From NCBI GenBank assembly GCA_009838845.1, contig VXRD01000041.1, positions 1-44,821 on the forward strand: DNA of 44,821 nt, given 5' to 3'. The notes beneath the pieces were generated by a model. The model saw only the letters and a program-made list of their open reading frames with translations, made no database searches and was not told where the DNA came from. The stretch is from Gemmatimonadota bacterium (GTDB lineage: Bacteria; Latescibacterota; UBA2968). Positions within the stretch are counted from its first letter, which is position 1; every line of letters begins with the position of its first letter. The position numbers and the translations under genes are program-made. Shown piece after piece: positions 5,405-8,491 of this stretch.

Positions 5405-8400
5405 TCACACTTCAACCGGTAACCCGACAAATAACCGACTATACTCATCCGTCAACGGATCGCGCTCGCCCTTTTGCGCTGCGCGGGCAAATACCACACC
5501 CGGCTTTTCCGACCTGCGCGCCCGCGCCAAAACGCCATACCCACCGGGCGCACTTTGCGTTTCCAGATCGCTCTGAATCGCCAGCATCTCCGCCAGCGCA
5601 TTGGCCAACCCCCAGCGCGCACCAATCGCCCGCGCAAAAAGCTCCTCTGGCGTCAGCCCCTCCCTGAAACCGTGCTTCAGGGGCGTAAACCCACCCTGAT
5701 CATTCCGCGTCACGCCCTGGGGAGCCACATAAAGTCTAACCTGTTGCCAATTGGCACGCGCACCACATTCCACCAGAAGCGCGGGAATCCCGAGATCATC
5801 GTCGTCATATTCGCGAAGCTGTGCCAACACAGCCGACACCTCATCGGGATAATCGCGCCAGACATCTGGGTCATCGCCCTCTGGCGGATCGGGACAGTCG
5901 AGCGACGAACCGATAAACGCACTCATCGACGCACCTGTCTTACGCGCGGCATCAAACCCTCTATCCCACAATCGCGCTGCCAGATCCAATGCAGCCTTTG
6001 CGCCATCGCGCGCCATTGCATCTGCCATCCAGTCCATCACCTGATGCTTATCGACAAATAACCCCTTGCGCTCAACCTCATCACCGACAATCTCCGCAAT
6101 CTCCTGCAACCCCTCGTCCGTCATACTCATATACGCCAGACCAAACAGCGCGTCGTGCATCGGGTGTACCTTCTCGCGTGCAATTAGTCCCGGATCCCGA
6201 TTCAGATGCGCTACTGCCGACAGATGCTCTTCAGCCGACCGCTGTCCCTCTTCAGTCACCGGCACAAAAATCGCCACCTGATCGCCGTCAAAATCCATAT
6301 TCATCATCTTGCAAATCGCCACACTCACGCGCACCGCATCATCTGCCACGCGCACCGGACGACACGCCACAAAAGCCATTGGCGAAAACGCGGGATTGCG
6401 AAGCACCACAGTCCATAACTTAGCCATAGCCGCATCCAGAGCTTTCTCTGCTTTTCTCGACCGCCTATCCACTTCTTCAGCCCCCACCTCTCGCGCGGCA
6501 AACGGCCCAAACAACGTCCACGCCATTTCTTCCGGCACACCGACCTGATCGTATCCCAATTCGGGTGCGGGCACAGTCACCGAACGCCCGCTGAACAACG
6601 CGCGCGCCTGAAATTGCAAACGCGACAACTCGCAAAATGCGCGAACCCGCTCAGACAGCGTCTCAACCGCGCGGTCCACCAGCACATCTGGCGCACCATT
6701 GGCAATCATCTCACTCAAGCGGTCATTAGCCTCTCGCAATGCGCGGGGCACATCTCTTCCGCTCACATGTGTCAATGAATGCCCCGGCAACCACGGATGC
6801 GGAACCGGACGCGCAAGCGCGACATCCCCCTCGCGTTTCAACGAAAACTCAACGCCGCGTTCATCCAACGCAACAGCCACCCCACCTTTCGACAAATGCC
6901 CAATTAGCGCATCAAACTGAGGGGACGGCGTAGTGGGAGCAACGGGTCCCGCCACGACGCGATCAGATAGAGTATCGGCATCATCTCGATCCACTGCGCA
7001 CGTATTGAACAAATCGTCAATCACTCCAAAAGCACCCGCTTCTCGCAACGCCAAAAACTCAGTCTCACCCAACCCTTGATCGCGTTGACCCGGCTTTACA
7101 CCCATGTGAATTTTATCTGCAGCCAGATGCAACGTGCGCCCCCAATACACCCACCCTACAGTGGTGCGGCGCGGCAGTGTTTCTCCATTCAGCGTCAGCT
7201 TCTCCATACCATCTTCTACCAACCCATTAGCACTCAAACGAGCGCGTATCTCATCGTCTTTAGGTGCATTGAGCGCGGGAATAATAACCGGCTCTCCTTC
7301 GGCCTTTGCAATGCGTCCGGCCACAGCTTCGCGCAACTGTCCAATATTCAACCGAGACGGCAAACCACACACACTCACAATAAGCTCCACAGACGTACCA
7401 TCCGACAGTTTGGGCATCTGTTCATCTCGCAAAATGCGCGACACCACCCCCTTAAAACCGTGTCGATTGCTCAATTTATCGCCCGGCACAACGCGATTGG
7501 GTAGCATCATCCGGTTCGCGGCCGATTCGCTCATCACAACCGCATCTTCGTGTGTATCACCATTCCACGCCATAAAGGCGGTCAGCAAATTGTACCCCGT
7601 CCAAAAATGCGGATCGCGCGGTTCACACCCCGTTTGCACCAGCGCGGGTTCCGACTCCAGTGTTTTGCCGTCATATTGCGCGTGATACGCGTGCCACAAA
7701 CCCTGCTCATCGCGCTGCATATCGGGGCTTGGCGCACCAATCCACTGCCGCATCATATTCACACCCATCAAAACGCGATTGGTATCATTGTGTTCCAAAA
7801 ACGGAACCACCGAAGCACCTATGCCCAGCCGTTTTTCAGGCGCATCGTCTTCAATCACCAGCTTGCCATCGCGAATCGTCGCCCCCTGAGCCACCTCTAA
7901 AATCCGCGCGAGATTCGGTCCCTCGGGCGTGCAATAAGGACACACGCGCCCATCGTGTGACGGATGATAGCAATTCTCTATCCCCTCATCGGCCTCACCG
8001 ATAATTGGGATCAACGTCACCCGCCGCAAATGAACGCACATATCCTGCAAATTGGTCGCTTGCAAAGACTGTGATGTGGGTTCTTCCATAAAAAATGTGT
8101 GAATCCAATCTCCCAACGGCAACCACGTTTCAACGGCATCTCCCAGCATCTCTGGCATATTTTCCAACCGCTCGGCAATATAATCGCGCAATTGCTCCCC
8201 TACACACCGAATCTCAGCCCGCGCCAAATCCACATCAGTCGGCGCGGGAACCACCGTTAGAAAAAAGCCATCTACCTTAAACCGTCCCCAATCGTCGGAC
8301 TGAGGGATATCTTTGTACACAACCTCTTGTCCCCCCTGAATCGCGAGATGCAATTCACAGGTATATTCATCCACTGACACCACCCGATACCCCGCCAGCG

Positions 8401-8491
8401 ACACCCGATTTGCCAACAATTCGGGCAACCCCTTTTGCACAAACGCATCCCACGAAATTTTATGCCACGGCGCCTTTACTGAAAGACTCAT
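5405..8491 (-). CDS. Compact fused beta-beta' DNA-dependent RNA polymerase catalytic protein
   Basis: A 1,028-residue protein combining the catalytic cores of RpoB and RpoC, normally about 1,340 and 1,400 residues. Beta part: rifampicin-pocket-like region (about 140-161), [12 protein letters not shown] then TPEGPN (176-193), [32 protein letters not shown] (306-322), [12 protein letters not shown] with Lys339 and Lys347, [17 protein letters not shown] and [13 protein letters not shown]. Beta' part: [10 protein letters not shown] (N-terminal match), clamp-helix region (about 580-620), SGRSV (634-638), [20 protein letters not shown] with Asp733, 735 and 737, and [18 protein letters not shown] (942-959, start of the bridge helix). 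The beta flap is missing: only about 15 residues separate SE from GDK. The beta' zinc-binding domain, jaw and canonical trigger loop are also missing. The ATG at 8491 has AGGAGG six bases upstream. It is the last gene of a cluster with an ECF sigma factor and a DksA-like protein. Catalysis is likely but unproven. Confidence 0.9.

Follow-up and report, generated by a model that had tools for sequence, protein, structure and literature searches.

In known bacterial chromosomes, one core RNA polymerase is encoded and is served by interchangeable sigma factors. Single-chain polymerases with two barrels are also known. The YonO polymerase lacks most of the conserved domains and is nevertheless active (PMC5467207), and the flap insert has been described as absent from YonO and from the NCgl1702-like enzymes (PMC7824862). 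The enzymes of phage P23-45 are active monomers (PMC10770324). In holoenzymes containing an ECF sigma factor, sigma4 enfolds the flap-tip helix (PMC6411747). In the open-access literature we found no report in which a single-chain polymerase on a chromosome is paired with a sigma factor of its own, and an enzyme of this kind with its own sigma factor and promoter is apparently undescribed there.

Here we present a polymerase gene in a window of 44,821 nucleotides, which is the whole stretch of DNA that was analyzed. The encoded protein, referred to as the mini polymerase, is preceded by the gene for an ECF-type sigma factor and by a conserved promoter (Table 1). We favour the reading that these elements make up a self-contained second transcription system on the chromosome, in which a dedicated ECF-type sigma factor and the single-chain mini polymerase act on a private promoter.

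Table 1. Positions of the sigma-polymerase unit, its parts and the inserted gene in the window.
Feature	Position	Strand	Basis
Terminator-like hairpin after the polymerase gene, at the end of the unit (16 pairs, then a T run)	5248..5284	(-)	Hairpin and T run in the sequence
Single-chain mini RNA polymerase (fused beta-beta' core), 1,028 aa	5405..8491	(-)	Pfam, structure search, AlphaFold2, mapping to E. coli
Bridge helix, residues 948-979	5555..5650	(-)	AlphaFold2 and mapping to E. coli
DFDGD catalytic metal-binding motif, residues 733-737 (E. coli D460/D462/D464)	6281..6295	(-)	Alignment; DxDGD motif of the superfamily present
Clamp helices, residues 582-620 (E. coli beta' about 266-309)	6632..6748	(-)	AlphaFold2 and mapping to E. 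coli
Beta barrel lysines K339 and K347 (E. coli K1065 and K1073)	7448..7483	(-)	Alignment; the two basic residues of the two-barrel superfamily present
ABC exporter between the sigma and polymerase genes, not a core part	8507..10369	(-)	Pfam and comparison of loci
Putative dedicated ECF-type sigma factor	10388..10981	(-)	Predicted TTG start at 10981 behind AGGAGG; start in the ORF list GTG at 11008
Promoter TGAACC-N13-CGGTGTC of the sigma-polymerase unit	11004..11029	(-)	Conserved pattern at the sigma gene
Terminator-like hairpin AGCGCAGTCC-TGAA-GGGCTGCGCT and T run, just upstream of the promoter	11029..11059	(-)	By eye; absent from the consensus-scan list

The mini polymerase gene and its active centre

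The open reading frame of the mini polymerase covers positions 5405-8494 of the minus strand, with an ATG at 8491 and a stop codon ending at 5405, and the plus strand contains stop codons throughout the gene. A preliminary description had reported a single frame with the signatures of RpoB followed by those of RpoC in the normal order, and all of the quoted motifs were recovered on the minus strand. The Pfam matches were to domains 3 and 6 of RpoB (Rpb2_3, 3.2e-4; RNA_pol_Rpb2_6, 4.8e-39) and to domain 2 of RpoC (Rpb1_2, 1.4e-14). Among solved structures, the top matches were the beta (6.6e-40) and beta' (1.5e-24) subunits of bacteria. Structure prediction, suggested as a check in the same description, yielded a confident single-chain AlphaFold2 fold from a 19-member family alignment (pLDDT 86.5, pTM 0.84), whose Foldseek matches were beta subunits of bacteria and plastids (E about 1e-24). 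Within the genus, dN/dS of the polymerase gene is about 0.15-0.17; the sigma and polymerase genes are both under purifying selection. Since homologues also occur across the genus and in several phyla, the frame is not a product of chance.

The host genome (5.75 Mb, 97.8% complete) contains separate standard rpoB and rpoC genes, with frames of 1,269 and 1,368 aa, respectively, on contig C164. Thus, the mini polymerase is an additional polymerase, as had been supposed, and it is ruled out that it serves as the housekeeping enzyme, i.e. as the sole beta and beta' of the cell. A full-length fusion of the Helicobacter type is likewise ruled out, with scores of 151-155 bits as compared to NCBIfam cut-offs of 4,632-5,372. 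The natural beta-beta' fusions had been said to be far longer, which agrees with profiles of 2,839-2,890 positions as compared to the 1,028 aa observed here. The predicted distinctness from the YonO family was also upheld; BLASTP gave E = 13 and hhalign a probability of 0.2% with the catalytic line alone aligned, so that neither sequence nor profile comparison finds a recognisable relation, and membership of this family is ruled out.

The retained parts were mapped onto the E. coli enzyme. In RpoB numbering, they comprise the fork (about 448-583), the segments 648-708, 792-824, 1057-1124 and 1179-1249, and the C-terminal part, in addition to an N-terminal stretch with weak similarity to beta. 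In RpoC numbering, they comprise the clamp helices (266-309), the segment 343-386, the DFDGD barrel (398-518) and the region through the bridge helix (716-794); beta' 575-704 has a weak counterpart, and the short C-terminus weakly resembles beta' 1328-1356. No counterparts were found for the beta lobe, for the flap (825-1056), for almost the whole of beta' 1-265 with the zinc domain and its cysteines, for the rudder region and the jaw, or for the trigger loop (beta' 926-940). The FREGL...IGAR signature maps to the bridge-helix region (beta' about 763-780) and not to the trigger loop.

All of the active-centre residues that we checked are conserved, both in beta (R678, N684, R687, E813, D814, K1065, K1073, R1106, H1237 and K1242) and in beta' (R425, N458, D460, D462, D464, R731 and R738); their roles are general knowledge on RNA polymerases. 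Among the aligned residues of the rifampicin pocket, H526 is retained, D516 is replaced by Q and S531 by T. The Asp triad is kept in 17 of the 17 family-alignment sequences that reach this site, along with most other active-site residues, and the residue aligned with R425 is missing in some members. A homologue in genome G053 (L040, 10531-13653, minus strand) carries YFDGD instead of DFDGD, GDR instead of GDK and HGSRG instead of HGxKG. It has lost a catalytic Asp, and both barrel lysines are replaced by arginine; judged from these substitutions it may be inactive, and it still keeps the pairing with a sigma gene.

The changes in L040, the lack of a residue corresponding to R425 in some members and the missing trigger loop would fit a catalytically degenerate protein that acts as a regulator or decoy, for example by titrating the sigma factor. 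We regard this as very improbable for the family, in view of the Asp triad kept in all 17 aligned sequences with most of the remaining active site, the dN/dS of about 0.15 and the activity of YonO, which has no trigger loop either (PMC5467207).

The paired sigma factor and its promoter

The sigma gene and the promoter lie outside the interval covered by the preliminary description and were not mentioned in it. An ECF-type sigma gene was observed upstream of the polymerase gene on the same strand in all of the 23 loci that we identified, and the two genes overlap or are at most 5 bases apart in 13 of these. The sigma factor in the window contains the Pfam domains Sigma70_r2 and r4_2 but no sigma3 domain, and its score against TIGR02937 is 121.3 bits (cut-off 42.9). 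It most likely starts at the TTG codon, because the listed GTG codon falls inside the -10 element.

The partner sigma factor was the top genome-wide match to the window sigma in 10 of 10 genomes of other clades, with 142-214 bits as compared to at most 93 bits otherwise. When analyzed together with 26 other ECF sigma factors, the paired sigma factors formed a single clade (support 99/93), and the linker motif W-[MLI]-[IVAL]-[DE] was present in 16 of 19 paired sigma factors as compared to none of the 26 unpaired ones. The sigma and polymerase distances were correlated (r = 0.70, Mantel p = 4e-4). A read-through model of the sigma factor and the polymerase reached a pTM of 0.67; it represents one locus (L067), in which the sigma stop codon was read as Trp and the polymerase is cut by the contig end.

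The pattern GAAC-N16-G(N)GTC was found at the sigma gene in each of the 22 loci that could be checked, with a spacer of N16 in 21 of them and of N15 in one. The consensus derived from 15 representatives is TGAACC-N13-CGGTGTC, where GAAC and the final GTC are invariant. Across the pooled loci, a spacer of 16 gave 32 matches, as compared to 3-16 matches for other spacers. Exact matches to the consensus occurred once per genome in 10 of the 11 genomes of the genus, each time at the sigma gene. One-mismatch matches within the genus were close to the reversed-pattern control, and control patterns with a spacer one base longer behaved as background. At the true spacing, no wider regulon was visible, as the matches beyond the sigma locus were few and near background, and those inspected fell inside genes. 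Thus, the sole target visible with the promoter motif is the sigma-polymerase unit itself.

Based on sequence comparison and structure prediction, on which the analysis as a whole relies, we conclude that the genome encodes an extra polymerase whose active centre is canonical and which is invariably paired with a monophyletic sigma factor, and that the promoter at the sigma gene is conserved. The original proposal had been a second transcription enzyme or an enzyme for primer synthesis. The ever-paired sigma gene and the conserved promoter favour transcription, and no support was found for a primase.

The sigma factor may have a different partner, however. It could serve the housekeeping RNA polymerase and only switch on the mini-polymerase operon, with the mini polymerase initiating without a sigma factor or extending primers. 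The promoter resembles an ordinary ECF promoter (GAAC ... GTC) and could be read by the housekeeping core carrying the window sigma, and the normal anchor of sigma4, the flap, is missing from the mini polymerase. Moreover, YonO, a single chain from which most domains are missing, is active without a known sigma factor (PMC5467207), and sigma-free initiation has been suggested for it. We consider this arrangement unlikely, as it would leave several observations unexplained: the sigma and polymerase genes are never separated in the assemblies of eight named phyla, the paired sigma factors make up a single clade and have their own linker motif, no second target of the promoter is visible, and the clamp helices have been retained despite the loss of other non-catalytic parts.

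Distribution and genomic neighbourhood

The homologue search, which had also been suggested beforehand, was carried out on genome contigs and identified 23 loci, whose assemblies are assigned by name to eight phyla (Latescibacterota, Poribacteria, Hydrogenedentota, Armatimonadota, Gemmatimonadota, Chloroflexota, Myxococcota and Planctomycetota), these being the names of MAG records, some of which may be wrong. Most members of the family are from MAGs. The mini polymerases form one clade with a support of 100 in a quick tree of uneven composition that also includes canonical and viral polymerases. Full-length homologues are present in 9 of the 11 genomes of the genus, single-contig genomes included. 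In the tenth genome (G029), the copy is broken and lies on a short contig of 4.7 kb (L062, contig C276), where the polymerase frame is split in several pieces; it is the sole broken copy seen in the genus and represents either a pseudogene or an assembly error. The eleventh (G036) has only a piece at a contig end. The mini polymerase is patchily distributed in the rest of the class. Canonical rpoC was undetected in three MAGs that carry the pair (G066, G069 and G072), and canonical rpoB was also undetected in G066 and G069, which is likely due to incomplete assembly.

Fused polymerases of other kinds were also observed. Genome G053, which belongs to the same class, encodes a chain of 1,979 aa (L046, 419-6355, minus strand) with the N-terminal domain of RpoA, then RpoB, and then RpoC including Rpb1 domain 5. 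This is apparently an alpha-beta-beta' fusion from a family separate from the mini polymerase. A fragment with 56% identity to this chain is cut by the contig end in L047 (4161-7766, minus strand), and the neighbours look chromosomal. Four viral contigs (L339, L340, L341 and L352) contain single frames of 1,447-1,985 aa with beta and beta' parts, which are fused viral polymerases and not members of the mini polymerase family.

The genes flanking the pair are common to close relatives only and are not shared between clades. Thus, the pair is the unit, and a conserved operon that extends beyond it is ruled out. The gap between the two genes takes inserts, namely an ABC exporter in the window, L050 and L052 and an unrelated frame of 396 aa in L035 (6660-7850, plus strand), and there is no insert in L044, L051 and L053. 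Upstream of the sigma gene, the window contains a gene without a family match (11086-12033, minus strand) and a gene for a protein with an N-terminal zinc finger of the DksA/TraR type (12023-13081, minus strand); both occupy this position in the genus and also in G024 and G026, which are more distant genomes, and not in other clades. The two minus-strand genes that occupy 2981-4765 and 4765-5151 encode a BlaI-type repressor and, following it, a BlaR1-type M56 peptidase with a TonB C-terminal domain. A C25-family (gingipain-type) peptidase of 1,894 aa with propeptide, CARDB and FlgD-like domains is encoded at 30855-36539 on the plus strand. A function in defence was rejected, as PADLOC gave no match for the polymerase and a weak one for the sigma factor (E 0.002).

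The patchiness across phyla, the differing neighbours and the cargo between the sigma and polymerase genes in some genomes could suggest that a transcription gene was captured from a phage, a plasmid or another mobile element. We give hardly any credence to this explanation. No full-length member was found among viral contigs, phages and plasmids, where the phages and plasmids gave no record at 80% coverage and the viral contigs yielded distant relatives only. The genes next to the mini polymerase, for example uvrB and nadC, are ordinary chromosomal ones, and the mini polymerase gene is present in nearly all members of the genus, including those with single-contig genomes.

Proposed mechanism and comparison with known systems

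We infer that the sigma factor and the mini polymerase form a holoenzyme, which would be catalytically active and autoregulated. In this holoenzyme, sigma4 would read the -35 element and sigma2 the -10 element of TGAACC-N13-CGGTGTC, and sigma2 would dock on the clamp helices that the mini polymerase has retained. The clamp helices are the usual docking site of sigma2 in bacterial RNA polymerase. Directed in this way, the mini polymerase would transcribe the sigma-polymerase operon at a minimum and would thereby reinforce its own expression. With neither a flap nor a zinc domain available, sigma4 must be anchored differently, perhaps with the help of the conserved sigma linker; the alternative implied by the missing flap is the use of the sigma factor by the housekeeping core. 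Several observations count against this model. Of the clamp-helix residues that we viewed, R278 is conserved, whereas R275, E295 and A302 are substituted, there is neither a flap nor a trigger loop, the read-through model attained a pTM of only 0.67, no wider regulon is visible, and L040 has lost catalytic residues.

A broader proposal is that many phyla carry a fully orthogonal, minimal holoenzyme of two polypeptides, which recognizes a private promoter, accommodates sigma4 without a flap, works without a trigger loop and moves between chromosomes as one self-activating cassette; we judge its chances to be about even. If true, a second chromosomal polymerase with its own sigma factor and private promoter would break the rule of one core enzyme. 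At about 1,030 plus 200 aa, it would provide a minimal sigma-dependent polymerase for probing directly whether the flap, zinc domain, lobe, rudder and trigger loop are needed, as well as a natural orthogonal polymerase-promoter pair.

The mini polymerase resembles RpoB and RpoC in the active-centre residues, the fork, both barrels, the clamp helices and the bridge helix. It differs from them in being a single chain of 1,028 aa rather than two chains with about 2,750 aa in total, in lacking the lobe, flap, zinc domain, rudder, jaw and trigger loop, and in its placement in a separate clade of the tree. The order of beta followed by beta' in one chain is shared with the full-length fusions of Helicobacter and Wolbachia (NF007172 and NF011417), whereas the host of the mini polymerase keeps separate rpoB and rpoC genes. 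Among reduced polymerases, the YonO-like enzymes (YonO of the SPbeta prophage and NCgl1702-like proteins) share with the mini polymerase a single chain of about 840-1,030 aa, two barrels and the absence of a flap insert and of a recognisable trigger loop (PMC5467207, PMC7824862). However, the mini polymerase is much nearer to cellular RNA polymerase, is paired with a sigma factor and was found here in chromosomal contigs only. The polymerases of viruses and jumbo phages (phage RpoB/RpoC, P23-45 and crAss-like gp66) are likewise reduced two-barrel enzymes, some of them single-chain (PMC10770324), but those on viral contigs have 20-27% identity to the mini polymerase, are mostly encoded by two genes and belong to a separate clade. 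Finally, the sigma factor shares with other ECF sigma factors the succession of sigma2, linker and sigma4 and a GAAC/GTC type of promoter with a rigid spacer (PMC6411747). In contrast to these, sigma factors of the type found in the window always adjoin their own polymerase, form their own clade with a distinct linker motif, and have a partner without a flap.
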